Position numbers and translations under genes: made by a program. DNA of 64,000 nucleotides from the NCBI GenBank assembly GCA_028281045.1, contig JANQKP010000001.1, positions 62,001-126,000 of the forward strand, given 5' to 3'. Positions 19,094-38,930 of this stretch are shown here, piece by piece. The notes under the pieces were generated by a model that searched no databases, was not told the DNA's origin, and saw nothing but the letters and a program-made list of their open reading frames with translations. The stretch comes from Candidatus Altimarinota bacterium (GTDB lineage: Bacteria > Patescibacteriota > Gracilibacteria > UM-FILTER-43-11). The number at the start of each line of letters is the position of its first letter. Position 1 is the first letter of the stretch.

Positions 19094-21037
19094 ATGTATT
19101 TATCTAGATTGCTCGTAAAAAATTATCGCTCTATAAAAGACTTGGATCTTTCCTTTAAAAAAGGGAAAAATATTATAATTGGACGAAACAATGCAGGTAA
19201 AAGTAATATTATTAAAGCCCTAGATATAGTGCTTGGAGAGAATTCACCCATTTTTGCCAAGTCTGAAAATATTACACAGAAAGACTTTTATTCGCACAAG
19301 AAAGAGGTGGAAGGCCAGCCTATTGAAGAAAGTGCTGACGAAATAATAATACTATGTGAGCTAACAAGGGAGCCAGGTGAAGCCCTGAACTATGATGAGA
19401 TGTACAACTGTTATGGATTCTATGCCACTGTCAGTAGGGCAATATCAAATGAAGGCCTAATAGAAAGACCTGCGTCTGTCTTTGAGATAGATCCAGATAC
19501 ATTAAGTAGAGCTGAGAAAAATTATATTAACCCAAAACTAAGACACCAAAAAAGTTTTGAACAAGAGTTTGAGGACAAGTATCATTTTACCTTCGTCTTT
19601 CAGGCTAAAAAAGATGAAAACGGCAAAATCACATCAAAGGAGTTAAGATTTCTCTATAGGGAAAATACCGATCTAAATTGGTTTCTGGGGTTTAAAGCAC
19701 CGATTAGAAATGAGTTTTTACAGAGCGCAATTATCCACTCATTTAGGGATCCTCAAATGCAATTGCGACTAAATGATTGGAGTTGGTATGGAAAGCTAAT
19801 GAGATATCTTACGCAAGAAAGTGATGAGCAGGGTAATTTAGAGCAGGCATTTGAAAAAGTTAGAGCTGTTGCAGATCAAATTTTTGAGTCCGCTAAGGAA
19901 AGCATACACAGGAGTTCGTTGGATGTGGCTTTTCCAGGGGCAGAGATACATTTCCAATTTAGCCATGACAAGAATACCGATATATATAAAGGCTGCAATA
20001 TATACATCGATGATGGGGTTAAAACTGCTCTTTCAGAAAAAGGTTCTGGTATACAGAGCGCAACCATCATTGGTCTATTCAACTATTACACCAAAGAAAT
20101 AAATACTGTCACCAGCGCCTTGCTTTGCGTAGAAGAGCCAGAATTATATCTCCATCCTCACGCAAGAAGAGTTTTAAGCGGAAGATTAGATGATTTTACT
20201 GATGCTGGAAAAAATCAAGTTATCGTTACCACCCACAGCTCTGAATTTATAAGTGCCAAAGATTGTGGTTTAAATGTTTTGCTTGCCAGAAAAGATGCAT
20301 ATGATGGCACTACAGTTAGCAACATAGAATTAGGTCAAAACAAATCACTACTTTTGGATAGTAACCACAAGGAAATATTTTTTGCAGACAAGGTTATAAT
20401 TTGCGAAGGTATAGCGGATGAGATGTTATTAAAGTGGATATCAAGCGAAAAATTTCCAAATAAAATCGATGAAAACAACATTTCCATTATTCCGGTGGGA
20501 GGAAAGAACAATATAATTAAATTATCTAAGCTCATCAGGCAGCTAGAGATCAATTGTTATGTATTTTCTGATTTTGATTTTTTGATCAGAGATGATTCAG
20601 AAGACGCAGACCCATATAAAACTGATCAACATTCATATAGGCATAAGAGCGTTGAAAATTTAACGAAAGCATTTTTTGAACAAGATTGTATTGCGGGCAA
20701 AAAAGGTAAAGATATTTTTATTGAAATTCAAAAGCTAAGACAGGGGTTGAAGAAGGAGGATGTTAAATCTTTCTATACAGCAAAAAAAATAGAGGAATTT
20801 TCGAATAAAGAGATGTTAGATGATTTTTTAGCTAAGCTCAGAAAAACTGGAGTTGGTATACTTAGCGCAGAGCTAGAAGACTTTTCAAAAAAACAAGATT
20901 ATATATCATCCTCTAAAAAAATTACTGAAAATAAAATTTTTGATCTAAGCTCAAAATTGGTAAATGGAGAGAGTATAGAGGATTATTTTGATACTATTCA
21001 GGTTGAAGAATTTCTTTCAGCAGTAATAAATGACTAG
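19094..21037 (+). CDS. OLD-family ATP-dependent nuclease (AAA ATPase + TOPRIM)
   Basis: 647 residues. The N-terminal ABC-type ATPase has Walker A GRNNAGKSN (30-38), a signature-like KGSGIQSA, Walker B LLCVEEPELYLHPHA (about residue 347) and a switch His in TTHSSE. A TOPRIM nuclease domain follows, with VIICEGIADEMLL (about 437) and the acidic YVFSDFDF (about 493). This is the class 1 OLD (overcoming lysogenization defect) layout; relatives act in phage defence. It stands alone, looks AT-richer than uvrC and dus on either side, and shares a CTAG stop overlap with dus. A transferred defence gene is plausible. Confidence 0.87.
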   Translation: MYLSRLLVKNYRSIKDLDLSFKKGKNIIIGRNNAGKSNIIKALDIVLGENSPIFAKSENITQKDFYSHKKEVEGQPIEESADEIIILCELTREPGEALNYDEMYNCYGFYATVSRAISNEGLIERPASVFEIDPDTLSRAEKNYINPKLRHQKSFEQEFEDKYHFTFVFQAKKDENGKITSKELRFLYRENTDLNWFLGFKAPIRNEFLQSAIIHSFRDPQMQLRLNDWSWYGKLMRYLTQESDEQGNLEQAFEKVRAVADQIFESAKESIHRSSLDVAFPGAEIHFQFSHDKNTDIYKGCNIYIDDGVKTALSEKGSGIQSATIIGLFNYYTKEINTVTSALLCVEEPELYLHPHARRVLSGRLDDFTDAGKNQVIVTTHSSEFISAKDCGLNVLLARKDAYDGTTVSNIELGQNKSLLLDSNHKEIFFADKVIICEGIADEMLLKWISSEKFPNKIDENNISIIPVGGKNNIIKLSKLIRQLEINCYVFSDFDFLIRDDSEDADPYKTDQHSYRHKSVENLTKAFFEQDCIAGKKGKDIFIEIQKLRQGLKKEDVKSFYTAKKIEEFSNKEMLDDFLAKLRKTGVGILSAELEDFSKKQDYISSSKKITENKIFDLSSKLVNGESIEDYFDTIQVEEFLSAVIND

Positions 21038-27242: not shown

Positions 27243-27628
27243 ATGTGATAATCCGTCCAAGTCTTTAATTTCTCTCCACGTTTTTCCAGGATTCCATTTT
27301 GCAGGGCTAGTAGTGCAAGCAAAGCGCATTTGCTTCTTCGAAGTGAAATGTCGATTCCAAGCATTTCAAAAACATCGGCTTTGGCGATCTTTAGAATCTC
27401 GTTTTCATCCATGTCTTCCGTTAAATCTCCAAGCATATCGGCAGAAGCCATAGAAATAGCGCAACCTTGCCCCGAAAAGCCATAGGCTTCTTTTGGGGTA
27501 ATAGAGGTCTCAATAACATCACCACAAGAATGATTTGCTTCTTTATGGGTAATCTCAGCAGAAAACTCCTTATCTTTATAATGAGGCTCTTTATACCTAT
27601 CTAAGATGTTTTGTGCATAAATATCCAT
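27239..27628 (-). CDS. sufU: Fe-S scaffold/sulfur-transfer protein SufU
   Basis: 129 residues of the IscU/SufU family. The three conserved Cys are in NHSCGD, GQGCAIS and SKCALL. The zinc-type SufU takes persulfide sulfur from SufS. Last gene of the sufCBDSU operon. Its ATG overlaps the sufS TAA (TAATG). Confidence 0.93.
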   Translation of the reverse strand: MDIYAQNILDRYKEPHYKDKEFSAEITHKEANHSCGDVIETSITPKEAYGFSGQGCAISMASADMLGDLTEDMDENEILKIAKADVFEMLGIDISLRRSKCALLALLALQNGILEKRGEKLKTWTDYHI

Positions 27629-28818
27629 TAGTTGAAGTATTTATGGGTTTCCTCCAGTGTTTTTACGGCTTTATCTATATCTTCCTCCGTATTATATAGG
27701 GCCAGGCTAATACGCGCGGTTCCAGGTAGCCCATAATGATCCATAAGTACCTGGTTACAATGGTGTCCAGCGCGAATCACAATGTTTTGTTGTGAGAGCC
27801 CTTCAGCAATGTCATGAGGGTGCACGCCTTCTATGCCAAATGAAACTAAAGATCCACGATTTTTCAGGTCTTTTGGCCCAATGATTTCCACATAAGGCAT
27901 GCTTGTTAGTTTGCCAAGCAGATATTCTGTAAGTTCTTTCTCGTATTTATGAATTTTGCTGTATCCAATATCTAAAACATATTGAAGCGCTGCCTTAAGG
28001 CCAATGGCTCCAGCAATATTAGGCGTACCCGCTTCGAATTTTTCTGGAAGTCCCGCAGGAGTAAAGTGGTCTTCAAAGACTTCGTTAATCATAGACCCAC
28101 CGCCTAGGAAAGGTTCCATTTGTTCTAGTAGTTCAGTTCTTCCCCAAAGTACTCCAATACCGGTTGGACCATAGATTTTATGCCCAGAGAACACAATAAA
28201 GTCTACACCTAGTTTTTGCACATCCACCTCTTGGTGCACAATGCTTTGCGCCACATCTACAAGTACAAGGGCGTTTTTGCTGTGGGCTACTTTAATAATA
28301 GGTTCTAGTTCCGGCATCACGGCTAAGCTATTATTCATAGCGGTAATGGCTACCAGTCTTGTCTTTTCATTAATAAGTTCCTCCGCAAATTCCAGGCGAC
28401 CTTCGCTATCGATTGGAATGTATTTAATATTCACCCCTGTTTTTTCTGAAAGCTGTAACCAAGGCACAATATTACTGTGGTGCTCCAGCTTACTTAAAAG
28501 AATCTCATCTCCTTTTTGAAACTGAGATTCTAGAGACCTAGCCACTAAGTTAATAGATTCTGTAGTATTCCGCGTGAAAATAATTTCATGCTTATTTTCC
28601 GCGTGAATAAAGTCTGCAGTCACTCTACGAGCATCTTCATAAGCCACAGTAGCTTCTTCTGATAAGAAGTTAGGCCCACGGTGAATATTAGAATTAAAAT
28701 GCGTGTAATACTCTGTAATAGCATCTAAAACCGCCTGCGGTTTCTGCGCAGTGGCTGCAGAGTCTAAATAAACAAGATCTCTTTTGCCGAAGATGGGAAA
28801 ATCTTTTTTAAAGTCCAT
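27628..28818 (-). CDS. sufS: Cysteine desulfurase SufS
   Basis: 396 residues, normal for class II desulfurases. PLP-binding Lys in FSGHKIYGPTGIGVL, substrate residues in YLDSAATAQKP, and the catalytic Cys in RAGHHCNQ near residue 350. It frees sulfur from cysteine as a persulfide for Fe-S cluster assembly. TAATG overlaps join it to sufD and sufU. Confidence 0.96.
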   Translation of the reverse strand: MDFKKDFPIFGKRDLVYLDSAATAQKPQAVLDAITEYYTHFNSNIHRGPNFLSEEATVAYEDARRVTADFIHAENKHEIIFTRNTTESINLVARSLESQFQKGDEILLSKLEHHSNIVPWLQLSEKTGVNIKYIPIDSEGRLEFAEELINEKTRLVAITAMNNSLAVMPELEPIIKVAHSKNALVLVDVAQSIVHQEVDVQKLGVDFIVFSGHKIYGPTGIGVLWGRTELLEQMEPFLGGGSMINEVFEDHFTPAGLPEKFEAGTPNIAGAIGLKAALQYVLDIGYSKIHKYEKELTEYLLGKLTSMPYVEIIGPKDLKNRGSLVSFGIEGVHPHDIAEGLSQQNIVIRAGHHCNQVLMDHYGLPGTARISLALYNTEEDIDKAVKTLEETHKYFN

Positions 28819-29672
28819 TATATGAGAGATTCTACTCTTTCTTTAAGCTCTGGCAAATCATCAATGATTTCAAGTCTATCCGCGAGGAATCCTTTAGCCA
28901 TGATTTTTCTCGCTTCATCCTCTTCAAGCCCACGAGATTTAGCATAGAAAAGAGCTTCATCAGACAGATTTGAAATGCTCGCCCCATGGCTCGCTTTTAC
29001 ATCGTTCGTATCTATTTCCAGCGCTGGCGTTGCTTTAACAGAAGCTTCTTTGCTAAGAAGTAGTGCATGTTCATGCATAAAGGTATTGGTTCCTCCGGCA
29101 GGCTGATCTATGGCAATGATGCCATTGATCTCTAAATTGCTTTTATCTTTAGCGACGCCTTTGGCATTGATTTCACCTCCACCGTTCTTCTGATGAAAAT
29201 GATTCTTCACCGTACAAGCAATTTGCTGCTCATTCTTCGCAGAAGAAATAAAATCTGTATTTAAAGTAGGGGACACGCCATTTCCATTTTGGATCATATT
29301 GGTTTCTACCGTTTTCGCTCCAAATTGGAAATTAATAAAGTGCACATCAGCTCCTTGCTCTGCTTGAGACGTTCTATTTTCTGTATAAGCGGTACTTTCT
29401 GCAAAGTTTTGCAGGGTAATAAGCTTAATGTTGGCATCTTGCTCTGCATTTACGGTAACGGTGTAGTCTAAAGCGTCTAGGTCTCCAGAAAAGTCTTCTA
29501 GAACCGTGGCTCTAGCATTAGCCCCAATGTTAATTTCTAGATTAACCTTGTTTTCATCTTCCAGCGTTAAGGTAATAGCTTCTTTAATTTCAGCACCGGC
29601 CGGAATGGTTAAAACGTAACCGTTGTCGGTTTTTTCAAATTTAACCTCTGATGTTTCAGTGATCATTTGCAT
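28818..29672 (-). CDS. sufD: Fe-S assembly protein SufD
   Basis: 284 residues, shorter than most SufD (about 400). The beta-helix core and the C-terminal SHGASISNLSDEALFYAKSRGL, typical of SufB/SufD, are clear, with the C-terminal helical GFLADRLEII. The long N-terminal helical region is mostly missing. It forms a complex with SufB and SufC. TAATG overlaps with sufB and sufS. Confidence 0.9.
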   Translation of the reverse strand: MQMITETSEVKFEKTDNGYVLTIPAGAEIKEAITLTLEDENKVNLEINIGANARATVLEDFSGDLDALDYTVTVNAEQDANIKLITLQNFAESTAYTENRTSQAEQGADVHFINFQFGAKTVETNMIQNGNGVSPTLNTDFISSAKNEQQIACTVKNHFHQKNGGGEINAKGVAKDKSNLEINGIIAIDQPAGGTNTFMHEHALLLSKEASVKATPALEIDTNDVKASHGASISNLSDEALFYAKSRGLEEDEARKIMAKGFLADRLEIIDDLPELKERVESLI

Positions 29673-31111
29673 TATCCGACAGAGTTTTCCATTTCAAGTT
29701 CTATAAGGCGGTTCATTTCCACGGCATATTCCAGTGGAAGTTCACGCACGATAGGGTTTATAAATCCATTTACAATCATGGCTTCCGCTTCTACCTCTGG
29801 AATTCCACGAGAGGTGAGATAAAACACATCTTCATCGTTTAAACGACCTACACGAGCTTCGTGATTTACGTTGGCAGAGCTGTTATCGATTTTCATTTTC
29901 GGTTCGGTATCCGAAATTGAAATCGGATCTAAAATAAGCGCATCACATTCGACTTTGCTCATGGCGTTTTCAGCGGTTTTAGCCACTTGTAGTTCCCCAC
30001 GGTACACCGAGGCTCCACCACCCTTGGAAATAGACTTCATCACTACATTAGATGAAGTATCTTTCCCAAGGTGGAATACTTTAGCACCGGTATCTTGTAT
30101 TTGTCCTTCATTAGCAAAAGCAATTCCAAGATGATCGCAACGTGAGCGATCTCCTTTAAGAATCGAAGCAGGGTAGAGCATGGTCACTCCAGACCCCATA
30201 TTACCTCCAACCCATTCCATCACAGCATCTTCATCTACAATAGCGCGCTTCGTATTTAGGTTGTAAGTGTCTTTACTCCAGTTTTCTACAGAGCTGTATC
30301 TAAATTTAGCGCGTTTCCCCACAAAGACTTCTACGCAGCCTGCGTGAAGTGCATTGCTTCCGTATTTAGGCGCAGAGCAGCCTTCAATGTAATGTCCTTC
30401 AGCATCATCTTCGATGATAATAAGGGTATGTTCAAATTGCCCCATGCCTTGAGCATTCATTCTAAAGTACGCTTGAAGCGGTTCATCGAGTTTTACACCA
30501 CTTGGAACATATAAAAAGGTTCCTCCAGACCATACCGCGCCATGAAGCGCTGCAAATTTATGATCTGAGCTTGGCACACATTTCATGAAATACTTTTGTA
30601 CCAGCTCTGGATGCTCTTTTACAGCGACATCCATATCTAAGAAAAGTACGCCTTTGTCTTCCCATTCTTTTTGAAGAGAGTGGTACACCACTTCAGATTC
30701 GTATTGGGCACCAACACCAGCAAGCACTTTACGTTCTGCCTCAGGAATTCCTAGACGATCGAAAGTATTTTTAATATTTTCTGGTACTTCTTCCCAAGAC
30801 TCAAAGCCACCTTCTTTATCGGCTGCTTTTGCAAAGAAACAGATTTCATCGAAATCGAGCGCAGAAAGATCTGGGCCCCAAGCAGGGGAAGCTTTCTTTT
30901 CAAAAATCTCTAGAGATTTCAGTCTATGCTCCAGCATCCAATCGGGTTCGCCTTTGTCTTTAGAAATAGCCTCTACAAGTTCACGTGAAATTCCTTTAGA
31001 GAATTTCTTCATGTATTCGGCTGGATCAGCATGATCGAAAGTATCCCGATCAAGACCGGCGAAAATCGGTTCATCCATTTCTCCCTCTGTTTGAGTAGGG
31101 TCCATTGGCAT
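29672..31111 (-). CDS. sufB: Fe-S scaffold SufB
   Basis: 479 residues. SufB landmarks include KCVPSSDHKFAALHGAVWSGGTFLYVPSGV, EGCSAPKY, VQNW-like VENWSKDTYNLNTKR, DTGAKVFHLG and the C-terminal NHEARVGRLNDEDVFYLTSRGI. It is the scaffold on which Fe-S clusters form with SufC and SufD. It follows sufC after one base. Confidence 0.96.
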   Translation of the reverse strand: MPMDPTQTEGEMDEPIFAGLDRDTFDHADPAEYMKKFSKGISRELVEAISKDKGEPDWMLEHRLKSLEIFEKKASPAWGPDLSALDFDEICFFAKAADKEGGFESWEEVPENIKNTFDRLGIPEAERKVLAGVGAQYESEVVYHSLQKEWEDKGVLFLDMDVAVKEHPELVQKYFMKCVPSSDHKFAALHGAVWSGGTFLYVPSGVKLDEPLQAYFRMNAQGMGQFEHTLIIIEDDAEGHYIEGCSAPKYGSNALHAGCVEVFVGKRAKFRYSSVENWSKDTYNLNTKRAIVDEDAVMEWVGGNMGSGVTMLYPASILKGDRSRCDHLGIAFANEGQIQDTGAKVFHLGKDTSSNVVMKSISKGGGASVYRGELQVAKTAENAMSKVECDALILDPISISDTEPKMKIDNSSANVNHEARVGRLNDEDVFYLTSRGIPEVEAEAMIVNGFINPIVRELPLEYAVEMNRLIELEMENSVG

Positions 31112-31112
31112 A

Positions 31113-31874
31113 TTAAATCCAGTTATATCCTTTCTGCTCTAGTTCTTCAGCAAAGTCTTTACCTCCAGATTTCACAATTTGTCCGTCTTTGAGTACGTGC
31201 ACAAAATCTGGTTCTAGGTATTTAAGAATTCTTTGGTAATGCGTCACCATAAGAATACCCATATTGTTTTCACTATCTTCTTTAACTTGTTTTACCCCAT
31301 CGCAAACAATCTTAAGGGCATCGATATCTAAACCAGAATCAGTTTCGTCTAGAATAGCGATTTCTGGTTTAAGTACGGCCATCTGCAGAATCTCTGCTTT
31401 TTTCTTTTCTCCACCAGAAAATCCATGGTTTAAGTAACGCGTGGCAAACTTAGGATCGATATGCAACTTTTCCATAAGCGCTTTAAGCATTTTCTTAAAG
31501 CGGAATACTAAAATTCCAGGAGCTTCTGGATCATTCGCTTTTTCTTTGGCGCGATAAGCCGCGAGTAGAAACTCTTCTGTGGTTACCCCTGCAATTTCCT
31601 TTGGATATTGAAAAGCAAGAAAGAGACCTTTATTGGCTCTTTCATTGGGTTCCCATTCTAAAATAGATTCTCCGTTAAAAAGAATATCTCCACCGGTCAC
31701 TTCGTACTTAGGATGACCCATGATTACATTCGATAGGGTACTTTTACCACTTCCGTTAGGACCCATGATCGCATGGATTTCATCTGAAGCCACAGTTAAA
31801 GAAACTCCTTTTAAAACAGGTTTGTCATCTACAGAAACTTGTAGGTCTTTGATCTCTAAAGTATTGATAGCCAT
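31113..31874 (-). CDS. sufC: Fe-S assembly ATPase SufC
   Basis: 253 residues. ABC ATPase with Walker A GPNGSGKST, signature FSGGEKKKAEILQ, Walker B AILDETDSGLD and a switch His in VTHYQRIL. First gene of sufCBDSU, behind a promoter with an inverted repeat. Confidence 0.97.
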   Translation of the reverse strand: MAINTLEIKDLQVSVDDKPVLKGVSLTVASDEIHAIMGPNGSGKSTLSNVIMGHPKYEVTGGDILFNGESILEWEPNERANKGLFLAFQYPKEIAGVTTEEFLLAAYRAKEKANDPEAPGILVFRFKKMLKALMEKLHIDPKFATRYLNHGFSGGEKKKAEILQMAVLKPEIAILDETDSGLDIDALKIVCDGVKQVKEDSENNMGILMVTHYQRILKYLEPDFVHVLKDGQIVKSGGKDFAEELEQKGYNWI

Positions 31875-32424: not shown

Positions 32425-33285
32425 TTAGCCTGCTAGCTGCCTAGGATTTTTAGGCAAAACTTTCTTAGCACCTTTGCCAAGCATTTTTGCAATCCAATTG
32501 CGGGACTTTTTTACCTGTTTTTGCGGGCGCCCAAATGGGTCTGGTAAGCCCATAACTTCTCTTTCTTTTATTAGGTTTTTTGTCATGTGTTGCCTCACCC
32601 AAATACCTTTCTCGTTGATTTGTAATTTACCGTCGTATTCTTTCTCATTAAAATCTTGGAAAGTGTAATCAGGGCCTTCGCTTTCTAGTAGTGATTGAAA
32701 CTGACTCAGTATAGAGTGCTCTCTTGTATGGTCATCAAGCTCCCAAATAGGTGTAGAAAGTATCTCTGTAGACTGATTCCAATCGAATTGATCAATCGTG
32801 GTTCCTAGAACTTTTTCAGCCCATGCATGGAGATCCCAAAAACTATCTCCGGCTTGCATATCTAACGTAAAGCCAGGATGGGCGTATTCATAAAGCACAA
32901 GCATTTCGCTTAAATACGCCTGAGCAGTTTCATGGCCTAGTTTTTCACGTGTGGCTTGAAGCAGTAAACCAAGGTAAAAGCGAATATCCAGGGCATCACG
33001 TGATTCATTTGGTTGCGTAAAGGCAGTAGCCCCTTCCACATGCCAACTTCGCACAATAAGGTTGTTGATCATGGGATCCTTCGAAAGAATGGCATACCAT
33101 CTCTTTTGCCCCTCTAAGATTCTTCTGTCAAAACCCTCCGGAATTGGCTCTTCTTGCTCGGCTAGACCTGTTTCAATAAGTCCAGAAGGCAAAGCTTGTG
33201 GGCGACTTTCTAAATTAGGGACAATAACAGAGTTAATATCTCTGATTTCTATCGCATCTGGTGATTCTTGAGGTCCAGTTCTCAT
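32425..33285 (-). CDS. Unknown 286-aa protein, divergent partner of the AAA+ cluster
   Basis: No family recognised. A soluble protein with a disordered-looking N-terminus (about 1-50), a helical middle rich in aromatic residues (FYLGLLLQATREKLG, YEYAHPGFTLDMQAG, SFWDLHAWAEKVLG) and a strongly basic C-terminal tail (KKSRNWIAKMLGKGAKK). Its promoter and that of the radical SAM/AAA+ cluster are back to back. This suggests shared control and possibly a shared job. Confidence 0.7.
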   Translation of the reverse strand: MRTGPQESPDAIEIRDINSVIVPNLESRPQALPSGLIETGLAEQEEPIPEGFDRRILEGQKRWYAILSKDPMINNLIVRSWHVEGATAFTQPNESRDALDIRFYLGLLLQATREKLGHETAQAYLSEMLVLYEYAHPGFTLDMQAGDSFWDLHAWAEKVLGTTIDQFDWNQSTEILSTPIWELDDHTREHSILSQFQSLLESEGPDYTFQDFNEKEYDGKLQINEKGIWVRQHMTKNLIKEREVMGLPDPFGRPQKQVKKSRNWIAKMLGKGAKKVLPKNPRQLAG

Positions 33286-33309: not shown

Positions 33310-33373
33310 ATTTTACGTATAAAACAAAATAAGTCAATTTTTTATTGACACTTCTATATATAAGTGTTTAAAT
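33310..33373. promoter_or_regulatory. Back-to-back divergent promoters of the AAA+ cluster
   Basis: Minus: -35 TTGACT (33337-33332), 16-base spacer, -10 TAAAAT (33315-33310), toward the 286-aa gene. Plus: -35 TTGACA (33345-33350), 17-base spacer, -10 TTAAAT (33368-33373), toward the three-gene cluster. The two -35 boxes are 7 bases apart and form an imperfect palindrome (GTCAAT...ATTGAC), a natural site for one regulator acting on both sides. Confidence 0.62.
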
Positions 33374-33400
33374 TATATCCTTTTACCCTAGTTGCACTCC

Positions 33401-34273
33401 ATGAGCTACGAAAGTCGCATATTTCAGCACCAAAATAATATCAATCGCTATCTCAAAGGCCTTGGGTCTCATGAGCGCTTTGATGAAGTAGAAAAAAAGC
33501 TGCTAAGCGAGTATCAGAGTATAGGGAATTTGCCTTATGAAGATCAGATTTTTGAAAGAGGTTGTGCTGAAGAAGCTTTTGCAGCCTTAGGGAGACGAGA
33601 TATGAGCCTTACAGAGTACGGGGTTTCGTTTGCAAAAGGGGTATCGATATACGTTCACACCCAGGAGAAAAAATTAGCAGAAGAAAAAAAATATGGAGAT
33701 GAACTCGCACAGGCAAACAAGACTTTTCTTAGGCTATGGGATGAGATTCGTAAAAGAAAGCGAAAGGAGATTGAAGAAAGAAGAATAGCTGAAGAGGAGA
33801 TTCAGAGAGCCATTAGCGAGACCAAGGCGAAGATCAATGCCAATACCTCACTCCTTTCTACAGCAAGAAAAGCAGCTGAAATGCTTATGCGAGAGGGGTA
33901 CAAGTTAGATGACCCTTCTGTACTTGAAACACCCCCAGCAGAGGCTATTTGTCATGGACTAAAAATAACCGCTACAAATGTAGATGGAGTTCAAAGAGAA
34001 ATTTCTCTGTATTTACCAGGAGGTGAAGTGCGTACCGTAGTGCACGTACCAAACGAATTAGATTTGAACTGTCAGGAGGCTGCAGAAGGTTTTCGCAATC
34101 AGATAGGACAGCTTATTGAAGATGCTGCTGCAAGCTGTGGTACTTCAATCACAGCCGATTACAGATTTAATGGCCCAGAAGGATCTGGTCCAAGAGGGGG
34201 TTCAGCAAATGTAGATCCTCACTTTATTCACGAGCAACAAGGTAATAACCAAGGTCAAAAGTTAAATGAATAA
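33401..34273 (+). CDS. Coiled-coil protein with a possible DUF2997-like C-terminus
   Basis: 290 residues from the ATG at 33401 (a TTG three codons upstream is less likely). The N-terminal half is helical. A charged coiled coil (RKRKRKEIEERRIAEEEIQ) lies near residues 120-150. The C-terminal about 90 residues (ISLYLPGGEVRTVVHV, LDLNCQEAAEGF, ITADYRF) recall the small DUF2997 family, found beside Ycf46-type ATPases in some bacteria. That match is from memory and weak. The next gene starts 8 bases before this one ends. Confidence 0.7.
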   Translation: MSYESRIFQHQNNINRYLKGLGSHERFDEVEKKLLSEYQSIGNLPYEDQIFERGCAEEAFAALGRRDMSLTEYGVSFAKGVSIYVHTQEKKLAEEKKYGDELAQANKTFLRLWDEIRKRKRKEIEERRIAEEEIQRAISETKAKINANTSLLSTARKAAEMLMREGYKLDDPSVLETPPAEAICHGLKITATNVDGVQREISLYLPGGEVRTVVHVPNELDLNCQEAAEGFRNQIGQLIEDAAASCGTSITADYRFNGPEGSGPRGGSANVDPHFIHEQQGNNQGQKLNE

Positions 34274-34907
34274 CTTACTAGAAAAAGCAGAGGGAGACTT
34301 TGTAGAGCGCACGTTTGAAGGCGATGATATAAACGTGGCGAGCTTTAGGGCCGCTACCCAAGTGCATGGCCCTGGAGAGCGCTTTGCCCTTTGGACTCAG
34401 GAATGTCTAAAAAGATGCCCTGGTTGCATCAATGGCCACATGCTCAAAAGCGAAGTGGCCAACTTAATGCCTCAAAAAACACTTCTAGATTTTGTGCGCC
34501 GCTCTCGCGATGGTGTGCTGGCCGTTGAAGGCATCACCATCATGGGTGGTGAACCCATGCTGCAAGCAAAAGGTTTAGCTATCTTGCTAGAAGCTATCAA
34601 GGCAGAGACTCCAGATTTCAACACGCTTATTTTTACTGGTTATACCCTAGAAGAATTGCAACGCTTTAATCGCCAATCTATAAACGACTTACTTGCCCTA
34701 ACGGACACTTTAATCGATGGCACTTACGAAAGAACTCAAAGAGACGCTGGTCATATTCGAGGATCAAAAAACCAGAATGTGCATCATCTTACTGAAAGAC
34801 TTGCAGAAAGAGACTTCTCAAGAAAAGGCGATGAGCACAGCGTAAACCTTACTTCTCAAGGGGTGTATCACGGCCAAACAGGCATACCCATTAATCAATT
34901 TGCTTAG
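34266..34907 (+). CDS. Radical SAM protein, NrdG/activating-enzyme-like
   Basis: 213 residues. Cys47, Cys51 and Cys54 form the radical SAM motif C-LKR-C-PG-C, preceded by ALWTQE. The SAM-binding GGEP is at 94-97, followed by a short half-barrel (LIFTGYTLEEL). Size and order resemble the activating proteins of anaerobic ribonucleotide reductase and other single-cluster radical SAM enzymes. No ribonucleotide reductase is nearby. The fixed neighbours are the coiled-coil gene (8-base overlap) and the AAA+ gene (no gap), so the partner is probably one of these. Confidence 0.82.
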   Translation: MNNLLEKAEGDFVERTFEGDDINVASFRAATQVHGPGERFALWTQECLKRCPGCINGHMLKSEVANLMPQKTLLDFVRRSRDGVLAVEGITIMGGEPMLQAKGLAILLEAIKAETPDFNTLIFTGYTLEELQRFNRQSINDLLALTDTLIDGTYERTQRDAGHIRGSKNQNVHHLTERLAERDFSRKGDEHSVNLTSQGVYHGQTGIPINQFA

Positions 34908-37900
34908 ATGAATTTAAACCCTTTCCCATTCAGAAGAAAACCAGATGGCACAGGATTGCCTGAGTCTGAGCGTGCCCTATTTGCAAAGCAGGTGGCTGGT
35001 AAGCTCAATGAGTACGAACCTATTATAGGGGTGAATGGAGATACTTCAGATTTCATGTCTCATGAGGGTCGTTTAGACGTGTCACACACTCTTCTGCAAG
35101 AAATGGTTTCTCCAGAAGAGGCAAAGGATAAAAAATACGACCTTGTTCTTGTTTATAACCCTGCTTCAGGGAAAATCACCTTTGGTGATGAGGTTTTAGG
35201 TTGGGGAGAGGATGATCTCTATATGAGAGAAGATTTCCAAAAGCTGAAACAAGAAATTAATATTGTAGCGGCCAGCAGCTTATCTGATGGAAATCAGTCA
35301 GATTTAGTTACACCATTAGTTGAAAAAGCTTTTGTAGGATCAACGCATGGAATGATGCCAGATAAAGTTTGTCTTGAACTTGTTTCCCAGCTTATTGGTA
35401 AGGGTAAAAAGGTTTGTCTGGTGGTTGAACAAGCGCATCATTTTATACCGAGCAACGGAGACCAAATGGCTTCTCCTGAGCGGGTGTCAAATGAGGCCCT
35501 TGTGCTTGATTTAGTAAGAGGCGACTTCAGACGTAATCCAGGAAGCCATATCATTCTTATCGATCGCAAAAATAAGCTCAATGGAGATATAACAGAGCAT
35601 ATTCCTTTTGTTTCTATTCCGCCTACCAATGAGGCCGATGTTCATCCAATACTCTCTGGCACTATCAAGGATCCAGAAGAGATGAAAAAAGCCCTTGTAC
35701 TGGCTAGAAGAACCAGAATTAGAGACTTAATGAACTTAACCACTGAGTTCAAAGATGATCCAAAGAATCTATTGGAAAGATTAGTACGTTTTAAAGAAGA
35801 GCAAGTGGTAAAAATGGCCGGAGGCGCTGTTAAGTGTCGTATTGAAAAATACGACGAAAGCATGGTTGCCATGCCAGATGAAGAACTTGAGTTTTGGAAT
35901 GGGGTGGCTAAATCTATGATAGAAAAACCAGATACAACTCCTCAAGGAGCCTTGCTTATGGGTTCTCCAGGGGTAGGTAAAAGCGTCAGAGCACGCTACA
36001 TGGCCAGTCTTCTAGGAATGCCGTTCTTACAGGTAAAAAACACCTCTAGTGGCGGACTACGCGGAGTTAAAGAAGATCGAGTGACTGCTGTACTTGAAGC
36101 AGCAATACGAGTAAAACCTTGTGTAATATTTTGGGATGAAATCGATAAAGCTTTCCCAAGAACGGAAGGGATGATCGAAGGATTTTCTAGTAATGACGAT
36201 GAAGAGGTGGCAGCAAAACTACAAACCATGTTAGATAGTGAAGAAATGCAGGGGGTTATTTTTGTTGCAGGAGTGAATAATCCTGAAACGATGAATGAAG
36301 CTCTGCTTCGTAGTGGACGTTTTGGAATAAAAATTGCTTGTCTTGTTCCAAAAACAGACAAGGAGCGCATGGATGTGTTTAAAGCTGTGTGGAATCAATT
36401 GCCAAGTGCTCGTGAAATCAATATGCCAACTAAAGCTATACTGCAACTTGTGGCGCAAGCTTCAGACCAGGCAACTGGTGCAGATTACAAAGAGCTTATA
36501 CAAAATGCTATAAGAGATTTAGATGTAGGTAAGTATAGCGATATTAATCAGGCCATTATTTATCATTTAAGCGTATTCCGTTTTGCTAAAAACGATCGTT
36601 TTAGAGCCATGGAAGACAAGGCGCTAGAGATGCATTCAGCTCCTTTCCTTTTAGATGGGGAATCGATTGAAATAAGCGAGAATTTCCAAGAGATTTTAGG
36701 AGCCCTTCAGATCATAGAAGATGGTAAAGCACAACTTGATGAAAAAGAGGCTCTTATCGATCAAAAGATAGAGCAATTAGGAGTAAAATCAGCTCAAGTT
36801 GAAGCCTCTAAGCTAGAACTTAATGAGCTCATTGAGCAACATGCACAAGTTATGCTGTCTGCAGATGCAGACCTGCAAGATCGCAGAAATAGATTGGATA
36901 CTGAAATTGCCCAAAAAAGAAAAGAGCTTGATGATGAAGAGCAGGCGCTTGCTGACCTAAGGCAGACGCTTGAAGATGAGCTCGCTTCAATGGGTGAAAA
37001 AGTAAGCGAAAGAGTAAATGAATTACTGATTGAAGAACGTGCTAAGCTGGCCGAAATTCAACTGGAGTTAAACGATATAGAAGCAGGCCTAGGCTTTAGA
37101 TCAGCTGAATTAGAAAATAGGGCTACTTCTTTAGACGAGCTCAATGCTTTAATTCAGCAAAGAGAGCGAGAGCTTGCCGACTTTAAAAACACTTTAAATG
37201 CCCTTGAGGCCACCATAAAAGCGCTTCAGAAAGAGCTTGAAAACAAGCTCAAAGGGGCTATTGGTGAACACGAGGCAGCACGTCTGCGTGAAATGCTTGA
37301 GGCAGTGGAGGCGCAGAAGAAAGAGCTGGCTGAAAAGCGCCAAGCAGAAGCAGCTAAAGAAAGAGAGTTTAGAAACCTACAAATGCGCCAAGCGGGTTAC
37401 ATTACTTCTGTAGGCCAGATCCCAAGGTTGGTTCAGAAAGCTTTCTTTGAACTTTTCTTTAAGGTAATTAAAGACATCAGGCAGTTTGCAGATAAAATGG
37501 GGCAACAGGGAGGAGCTATGATCCAAGAACATCTGAATAGAGAGTTTGCTGATAAAAGCCTGCTTCCTAACAATAACGATGGAAGCAAGGTATCTATACT
37601 GATTCTAAAAGTTAAAAAGAATAGCGCTGAAGATATGGAAATCACAGGAGATGTTATTTTTGATCTTGGGTTCTATGTTCCATCTATATTGAGAAACGAT
37701 CTCAATCTTTTAAAAGGGAAGGATGGACGCAAAAACAATTGGACGATTACCGCTAACGGAAGACAGGGGGGTGGAACAAGGCTTGCTATTAAAGGTTTAA
37801 GATTAGATCAAGAAGTTCTATCGGGAAGTGGTGACCTCATTCATATGCTAGGCAAGCTTGGTCAGTATCACGAGGCATATAGTGGTAAAATCCATTATAA

Positions 37901-38930
37901 ACCTGAATTCGATGTTCACGCAGTCGTAGGGGAATTGGTTGAATTCAAGCCAAGTATGTTATTACTGGATTACGAATTCGTAACAAAAATGACAGAACGC
38001 ATTATTGCCAGTCAGTTTGCCCCTTGGGAACATAAGAAATCTTCAAAATTTAAGGTTGAAACTACGGCAGATAGGGAAGAGGTAGCCAACTTATTTGCGG
38101 AGCTAATAAGAGTACTGCGAGATGGTGAAAAGCAATTAGAAGACCTTATTATTTTCCTTGGAGAAGCCGAGGCAGAAAGATGGATCAGCCAAGTAAGTAC
38201 ACTGGCTGAGTATAAAGATCTACTGAGTAGGATTGTGCACATTAAAAATCAATATCTGCACCTGAGTGAGTATGGAATAACTAGCTTAAGCGACAAGGCT
38301 TGCTATGAACGTATGCACAAGATGCTCATTGATAGTCTTCCCAGCGATGAAAAAGCCATTGAAATCGATAGTAGTAATAGTAGAGTTAAAATACTTAGAA
38401 AAGGTCAGGGCATTAAGCACACTTATTATTCCTTTCACAACACTTATTATACAGAACTAGAAATTACGCCAAAGCCTACAGGGCTATCTATTAGTGCTGA
38501 TAAACGTGAGCTTGATATGAATCAGGAGCGCTTAGCTAGATTGGCTAGTTACATCAACGGTGTAAGAAAGGATGGTCTGCCGACACGTGTAAGAAATGGG
38601 GAAATTAGCCTTGGCCTAGAAAAGGATAAGCTTAGAAGTGTTTATGATGAATTTTATAAGCAATTAGGAGTTAAGTTCCCAGCAAAGTATGTGGTTGATA
38701 AAAAAGGTGAAACCATTCATGTAGAACTAAGAAGCGATAGAACACCAGTTTCATTCAAGCTGGAAATGCAAGATAACTGTATTCGTATTTTTGATTACGA
38801 TTTCTCTAGGTGTAGTGATCAGTCTGAAGCAACAAAAAGAAGGGTTATAGGAGAGGTTATTCATACAGATCTTCGCAGTGTTTTCACCCCTATACTAGAG
38901 GAGGTTTGGGGTAGGGTTTCTAGCAAGTAG
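34908..38930 (+). CDS. Large Ycf46-like AAA+ ATPase with a long coiled coil
   Basis: 1340 residues. An N-terminal non-catalytic domain (about 1-310) is followed by an AAA+ module: Walker A GSPGVGKS (about 352), Walker B CVIFWDEIDKAF (about 405), sensor VNNPE and arginine finger LLRSGRFG (about 467). The N-domain/AAA+ pattern resembles Ycf46-type ATPases. Residues about 600-830 form a coiled coil (KEALIDQKIEQLG, RQTLEDELASMGEK and many similar). The last 500 residues are a mixed region I do not recognise. It is the third gene of a tight cluster and would act as an oligomeric remodeller. Confidence 0.85.
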   Translation: MNLNPFPFRRKPDGTGLPESERALFAKQVAGKLNEYEPIIGVNGDTSDFMSHEGRLDVSHTLLQEMVSPEEAKDKKYDLVLVYNPASGKITFGDEVLGWGEDDLYMREDFQKLKQEINIVAASSLSDGNQSDLVTPLVEKAFVGSTHGMMPDKVCLELVSQLIGKGKKVCLVVEQAHHFIPSNGDQMASPERVSNEALVLDLVRGDFRRNPGSHIILIDRKNKLNGDITEHIPFVSIPPTNEADVHPILSGTIKDPEEMKKALVLARRTRIRDLMNLTTEFKDDPKNLLERLVRFKEEQVVKMAGGAVKCRIEKYDESMVAMPDEELEFWNGVAKSMIEKPDTTPQGALLMGSPGVGKSVRARYMASLLGMPFLQVKNTSSGGLRGVKEDRVTAVLEAAIRVKPCVIFWDEIDKAFPRTEGMIEGFSSNDDEEVAAKLQTMLDSEEMQGVIFVAGVNNPETMNEALLRSGRFGIKIACLVPKTDKERMDVFKAVWNQLPSAREINMPTKAILQLVAQASDQATGADYKELIQNAIRDLDVGKYSDINQAIIYHLSVFRFAKNDRFRAMEDKALEMHSAPFLLDGESIEISENFQEILGALQIIEDGKAQLDEKEALIDQKIEQLGVKSAQVEASKLELNELIEQHAQVMLSADADLQDRRNRLDTEIAQKRKELDDEEQALADLRQTLEDELASMGEKVSERVNELLIEERAKLAEIQLELNDIEAGLGFRSAELENRATSLDELNALIQQRERELADFKNTLNALEATIKALQKELENKLKGAIGEHEAARLREMLEAVEAQKKELAEKRQAEAAKEREFRNLQMRQAGYITSVGQIPRLVQKAFFELFFKVIKDIRQFADKMGQQGGAMIQEHLNREFADKSLLPNNNDGSKVSILILKVKKNSAEDMEITGDVIFDLGFYVPSILRNDLNLLKGKDGRKNNWTITANGRQGGGTRLAIKGLRLDQEVLSGSGDLIHMLGKLGQYHEAYSGKIHYKPEFDVHAVVGELVEFKPSMLLLDYEFVTKMTERIIASQFAPWEHKKSSKFKVETTADREEVANLFAELIRVLRDGEKQLEDLIIFLGEAEAERWISQVSTLAEYKDLLSRIVHIKNQYLHLSEYGITSLSDKACYERMHKMLIDSLPSDEKAIEIDSSNSRVKILRKGQGIKHTYYSFHNTYYTELEITPKPTGLSISADKRELDMNQERLARLASYINGVRKDGLPTRVRNGEISLGLEKDKLRSVYDEFYKQLGVKFPAKYVVDKKGETIHVELRSDRTPVSFKLEMQDNCIRIFDYDFSRCSDQSEATKRRVIGEVIHTDLRSVFTPILEEVWGRVSSK

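Follow-up and report, generated by a model that had tools for sequence, protein, structure and literature searches.

A conserved three-gene operon pairing a radical-SAM protein with an enlarged Ycf46-type AAA+ ATPase in a Candidatus Altimarinota bacterium

The window analysed here, a stretch of 64,000 nucleotides from a Candidatus Altimarinota bacterium (assembly GCA_028281045.1, contig JANQKP010000001.1, positions 62,001 to 126,000 of the forward strand), holds a compact set of three genes which encode a predicted coiled-coil protein (open reading frame 1, ORF1), a radical S-adenosylmethionine (SAM) protein and an AAA+ ATPase. These genes form a real conserved unit, present in two families of the class, and the comparisons support the view that the set is a rare and enlarged form of the widespread Ycf46 operon. 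As regards function, we give slightly less than an even chance to the reading in which the three genes would constitute a radical-SAM/AAA+ module for protein modification or remodelling.

The unit is defined by its recurrence in a second family. A search of 353 class genomes with a profile of the radical-SAM protein gave a strong match (expectation value, E, of 1.9e-49) in a genome of another family (G623), where the order ORF1, radical SAM, AAA+ is the same as in the window (locus L070). Between the two loci, the ORF1 proteins are 32% identical (E=2e-30), the radical-SAM proteins 45% (E=8e-60) and the AAA+ proteins 32% across residues 4-722 (E=5e-90), this relative being reachable via the radical-SAM profile alone and not by full-length AAA+ searches, which returned generic AAA matches or none from genome contigs, viral contigs, plasmids and sampled relatives; scans with single proteins likewise yielded nothing. 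With the ORF1 profile, convincing matches were obtained in two of 348 class genomes, those of the window and of G623, two further matches at about 1e-4 being partial, in the helical part, and read as chance. The profile of the AAA+ N-terminal domain was found in two of 379 genomes of the phylum (G000 and G419), exactly those with the AAA-linked radical-SAM type. The distribution of the module is patchy, since this radical-SAM type gave no match in any of the 17 genomes listed for the same family, and such patchiness suggests horizontal acquisition, of which base composition shows no sign (guanine-cytosine (GC) fraction of 0.416 against 0.412 in the window).

All four ORFs of a preliminary description of this DNA are present in the window sequence, and its account of the layout (Table 1) proved accurate. 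ORF1 overlaps the radical-SAM gene by 8 nucleotides, the stop of the latter abuts the ATG of the AAA+ gene with zero gap, and a TTGACA/TAAATT site precedes ORF1; the three genes are co-transcribed behind this one good predicted promoter. The start of ORF1 is likely the ATG at 33401 rather than the TTG at 33392, since the G623 homologue begins at the same place (MSYES/MSHHS). A fourth gene leaves from the other side, the -35 boxes of the two promoters lying 7 base pairs apart as had been described; both sites score 10 of 12 and are the two best of the region, in which the count of promoter-like sites is not above the shuffled expectation (9 vs 9.8). What did not stand was the inclusion of this divergent gene in a four-gene unit. 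It is not part of the conserved unit, since a search of 57 related genomes found none with a relative of it and no homologue was found beside the G623 locus, nor did it give a convincing family match; the expected linkage in relatives was borne out for three genes and failed for the fourth.

Table 1. Coordinates (window numbering) of the three-gene module, its parts and neighbouring features
Feature	Position	Strand	Details
Divergent promoter pair	33310..33374		+ TTGACA 33345-33350/TAAATT ending 33374; - TTGACT 33337-33332/TAAAAT ending 33310
ORF1	33401..34273	+	290 residues; helical N-terminus, long helix/coiled coil, C-terminal beta-beta-alpha segment
Radical-SAM protein	34266..34907	+	213 residues, NrdG-like size; Fer4_12 2.5e-30; Radical_SAM 3e-6
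CxxxCxxC [4Fe-4S]/SAM motif	34404..34427	+	C47/C51/C54; intact
AAA+ ATPase	34908..38930	+	1340 residues
Ycf46-type N-terminal domain	34908..35897	+	residues 1-330; GxxSD 44-48, FxDE 92-95
Classical AAA motor	35937..36512	+	residues 344-535; PF00004 1.3e-22
Coiled-coil region	36672..37397	+	residues 589-830; no proline, 38% charged, heptad-like runs 637-786
Unrecognised C-terminal region	37398..38927	+	residues 831-1340
Divergent orphan gene	32425-33285	-	286 residues; intergenic region common with the module, outside the conserved unit
Suf iron-sulfur assembly genes	27628-31874	-	SufC-like, SufB-like and two more Suf-like
OLD/RecF-like P-loop ATPase gene	19094-21037	+	647 residues

The ATPase had been called Ycf46-like, with a coiled coil and a large unrecognised C-terminus, and each part of that description was upheld. 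By profile comparison, its N-terminal domain is homologous to that of Ycf46-type proteins: the profile of the window and G623 sequences matched the Ycf46-type one with E=4.7e-6, none of 150 column-shuffled controls being as good, and the GxxSD and FxDE positions are invariant in the alignment of the window, G623 and G419. The motor is intact, with Walker A (GSPGVGKS, 352-359), Walker B (VIFWDE, 406-411) and an arginine-finger region (RSGRFG, 468-473). A structure prediction of the N-terminal part, run without an alignment, was poor (predicted local distance difference test, pLDDT, of 37). The coiled-coil region gave matches to SMC models, within their coiled coils, and the 510 residues that follow have no Pfam or PDB match; moreover, past the coiled coil the window and G623 proteins are unrelated (best E=1.2). 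The exchange of this part, on a motor that is itself conserved, suggests that binding is specific to the client. Identity with IetA, the ATPase of the anti-phage IetAS system, was rejected, the IteA model reaching 41.6 bits against a cut-off of 510 and matching the AAA domain alone; IetA has an adjacent subtilisin-type IetS, whereas the operon contains no protease gene.

Judged from its motifs, the product of the second gene is a member of the radical-SAM superfamily and a predicted enzyme. The cysteine motif is followed by a SAM-binding GGEP at residues 94-97, and both are invariant in the alignment of nine relatives. It resembles NrdG and pyruvate formate-lyase activase in its size, in CxxxCxxC and in its matches to Fer4_12 and to the NrdG model, the latter being its best NCBIfam match (E=1e-25) at 90.5 bits, below the curated cut-off of 126.1; PHROGs likewise returned a NrdG-like family. 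It differs from them in having no glycyl-radical partner that could be found, in its separate position in the tree and in its AAA+ neighbour, which replaces NrdD. In a tree with NrdG and pyruvate formate-lyase activase types, the window and G623 proteins form a clade (99/95) nested in an AAA-linked group (86/81), which also holds one unlinked Geminocystis sequence, and of eight NrdG sequences seven belong to two other clades, both supported; monophyly of all AAA-linked radical-SAM proteins is not shown by this tree. The protein belongs with the AAA+-linked ones of Ycf46/DUF1257/DUF2997 operons, and in the tree it does not group with NrdG or the activase, families with known partners in which its membership had been left to be checked. 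A viperin identity was also rejected, the match being weak and at superfamily level.

Ycf46, DUF1257 (Ycf35) and DUF2997 have long been known as conserved cyanobacterial genes, Ycf46 and Ycf35 persisting in algal plastids, and to our knowledge none has a settled biochemical role. The preliminary description had mentioned Ycf46-type ATPases beside DUF1257/DUF2997 genes and a small Fe-S protein, and operons of this kind were indeed found. In G419, of the same phylum, DUF1257-like, DUF2997-like, radical-SAM and Ycf46-like AAA+ genes lie in a row, the two small proteins being assigned from position and sequence pattern (Pfam DUF2997 weak at E=0.066, DUF1257 none), and classic DUF1257/DUF2997/radical-SAM/AAA+ operons are also carried by plasmids of Paenibacillus, Paenarthrobacter and Rhodococcus, with DUF2997 annotated there. 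The homologous N-domain, together with this classic set in the same phylum, supports the proposal that the window holds an expanded Ycf46 system. Both kinds of operon are compact and share that N-domain, a classical AAA motor and the same radical-SAM group, but the window ATPase has 1340 residues against some 510-570, with an added coiled coil and C-terminal region, and the two small DUF proteins are replaced by a single coiled-coil protein of 290 residues, for which the likeness to DUF2997 is indirect. An expansion of this kind fits the three genes and not the fourth.

As for ORF1, its best-conserved stretch in the alignment with G623 is F[EQ]RGCAExAF (residues 51-60). No convincing family match was obtained, nor any match in plasmids; its single-sequence structure model was of low confidence (pLDDT 55), and a fold search of ORF1 gave nothing below E=0.1. 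Profile comparison related its end to the ends of a set of coiled-coil proteins, those of the plasmids and one from Calothrix (E=5e-4, with 0 of 150 shuffles reaching that level), and the ends of the plasmid proteins, from loci with a ClpB-type AAA+, were in turn related to DUF2997 (E=9e-5, 0 of 150 shuffles; Pfam 0.016 for one member). ORF1 is thus probably a coiled-coil/DUF2997-type fusion, though not a proven one. Pfam gave no DUF2997 match in ORF1 and no DUF1257 match in ORF1 or in the AAA+ protein, the latter model also missing the proteins at the equivalent positions in L009 and G419.

In the modification or remodelling reading, the likeliest of those considered, the radical-SAM enzyme would make a 5'-deoxyadenosyl radical and modify a residue of a partner protein, which may be ORF1, in place of DUF1257/DUF2997, or a client adapted by ORF1. 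The AAA+ ring would bind the client via its variable coiled-coil/C-terminal part and would use ATP either in handing it over to the enzyme or in its later remodelling and release. In favour of this reading are the three-gene order common to two families, the intact motor behind a Ycf46-type N-domain, a radical-SAM protein from the AAA+-linked group, and the failure to find NrdD or a glycyl-radical domain in genomes that carry it. Several points weigh against such a scheme. No member has a known substrate, product or activity; the C-terminus of the ATPase has no recognisable relative; and the direct comparison of ORF1 with DUF2997 was not significant, 26 of 150 shuffles being as good, so that this link is indirect. 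In addition, the ferredoxin Fed7 accompanies DUF2997 and DUF1257 in a cyanobacterial cluster (PMC4284462), by analogy with which the Fe-S protein could carry electrons, with no radical chemistry. The literature on Ycf46 and on Fed7/DUF2997/DUF1257 gives phenotype and linkage, but no chemistry (PMC7496141, PMC4284462), and a literature search, within the collection of papers that it covered, returned none on radical-SAM/AAA+ pairs like these, save a thematically similar prediction of FtsH ternary systems (PMC7159879).

The same association was met on plasmids, where 11 loci have a member of the radical-SAM family beside an AAA+ gene or within a few kilobases of it. A ClpB-type AAA+ gene adjoins the radical-SAM gene in Polaromonas, Moellerella, Leisingera, Acinetobacter and Photobacterium, a CbbX-type one lies near it in Calothrix, and on plasmid pTRESU01 of Treponema succinifaciens (L012) radical-SAM and Ycf46-like AAA+ genes adjoin one another, in a locus that also holds genes of VgrG/Pvc8 type and for the baseplate of a contractile injection system. 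The radical-SAM relative of Geminocystis plasmid pGM01 (L048, 4953-10255) has no AAA+ neighbour; three P-loop NTPase genes (GHTGVGKT, GHSGVGKT, GTTGAGKT) lie nearby, downstream of it. In the five genera with a ClpB-type gene (L007, L008/L072, L010, L013 and L045) a five-gene cassette is found, with an SF1-type helicase, a PIN-domain protein, a coiled-coil protein, a ClpB-type AAA+ and a 4Fe-4S radical-SAM protein, which is possibly an uncharacterised mobile-element system; its PIN, coiled-coil and radical-SAM proteins gave no specific PADLOC match. The cassette resembles the window module in its radical-SAM protein (34-42% identical), in the adjacent AAA+ and coiled-coil proteins, the latter with a DUF2997-like end, and in a GNxxD motif near the AAA+ N-terminus, while it differs in having a Clp D2 (AAA_2) motor in place of a classical AAA one, and in the extra helicase and PIN genes.

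These likenesses raise the possibility, which we regard as doubtful, of a general class of machines in which one radical-SAM family would have been combined repeatedly with classical AAA, Clp D2 and CbbX motors sharing a GNxxD N-domain, together with a coiled-coil/DUF2997-like partner. A protein presented by the ring would then be radically modified, for instance ORF1 at its conserved RGC motif, and the window would hold a version specialised for its target, in which the C-terminal region has been exchanged. A GNxxD-like motif does recur near the N-terminus of several AAA+ motors; the profile link between the window N-domain and the Clp-type one is marginal, with 1 of 150 shuffles as good.

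Among the alternatives, a conflict or defence module is possible but not probable. Here the variable C-terminus would let the AAA+ ring sense or recruit an invader-related target, an effector being armed by the radical-SAM enzyme. The sporadic distribution, with no match in the 17 same-family genomes, the unrelated C-termini on a conserved motor and the helicase and PIN-domain protein added in the plasmid cassette are all in keeping with this, and a published prediction describes FtsH ternary systems in which a radical-SAM enzyme would modify a peptide effector (PMC7159879). Nevertheless, PADLOC gave no significant specific match, but superfamily-level AAA and radical-SAM matches alone, the window is unlike a defence island, most neighbours looking like housekeeping genes, and the relatives of Ycf46 in cyanobacteria are linked with stress and with the use of CO2 (PMC7496141).

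The latter association underlies another alternative, that of a stress or redox regulator, which we consider unlikely. The Fe-S protein would act not in catalysis but as a sensor or an electron carrier, as Fed7 might suggest (PMC4284462), while the AAA+ protein would adjust metabolic enzymes, as has been proposed for Ycf46. In Synechocystis, Ycf46 belongs to an operon that responds to stress, and the activity of the carbonic anhydrase EcaB falls when Ycf46 is lost, according to Jiang 2015 as cited in PMC7496141. However, CxxxCxxC and GGEP are invariant in the aligned relatives, and a role in sensing alone is unlikely to have preserved the catalytic signature intact.

That the protein is an activase of glycyl-radical enzymes, of the NrdG type or another, with the gene for its partner in some other part of the genome, as its NCBIfam and PHROGs matches would allow, is very improbable and has been largely refuted. 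The lack of a nearby partner, already noticed from the sequence, extends to the whole genome, which is 96% complete: the NRDD and Gly_radical families were not found there or in the three other genomes with an AAA-linked radical-SAM protein (G623, G419 and G538), all four have another ribonucleotide reductase, and controls were positive in known genomes, so that a hidden partner is probably not the explanation. The NrdG identity was rejected on this absence and on the position apart from the supported NrdG clades. Among 49 radical-SAM loci from class and phylum genomes, an AAA+ neighbour occurs in four, those of the same genomes, and NrdD adjoins many of the remaining ones, the two never occurring together. 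The G538 locus (L071) consists of contig C27, of 4.2 kilobases, with an FHA-like protein, a radical-SAM protein and a ClpB-type AAA+; it may be a contaminant, since its three long ORFs are open under table 11 while the ribonucleotide reductase gene of the assembly reads through many TGA codons. Finally, a chance grouping of genes with unrelated functions, true of the divergent fourth gene, is refuted for the other three by their unchanged order and close packing in another family and by their joint presence or absence across 348-379 genomes.

As regards the surroundings, the Suf iron-sulfur assembly genes lie 1.5 kilobases from the operon, and were not seen adjoining the G623 locus. The OLD/RecF-like gene has the lowest GC among the long genes of the window (0.347 vs 0.412) and was possibly acquired.

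The Ycf46-type gene set was known, and functionally unsolved; what is new here is an enlarged three-gene variant with a longer ATPase and ORF1. In heterotrophic counterparts of Ycf46/DUF1257/DUF2997, a radical-SAM enzyme and an AAA+ ring regularly occur together, in genomes with no glycyl-radical protein found, and this pairing turns the question of the role of Ycf46 into a testable problem of enzymology, namely to find the modified substrate, for which the compact three-gene version of the window offers a tractable set for co-expression.

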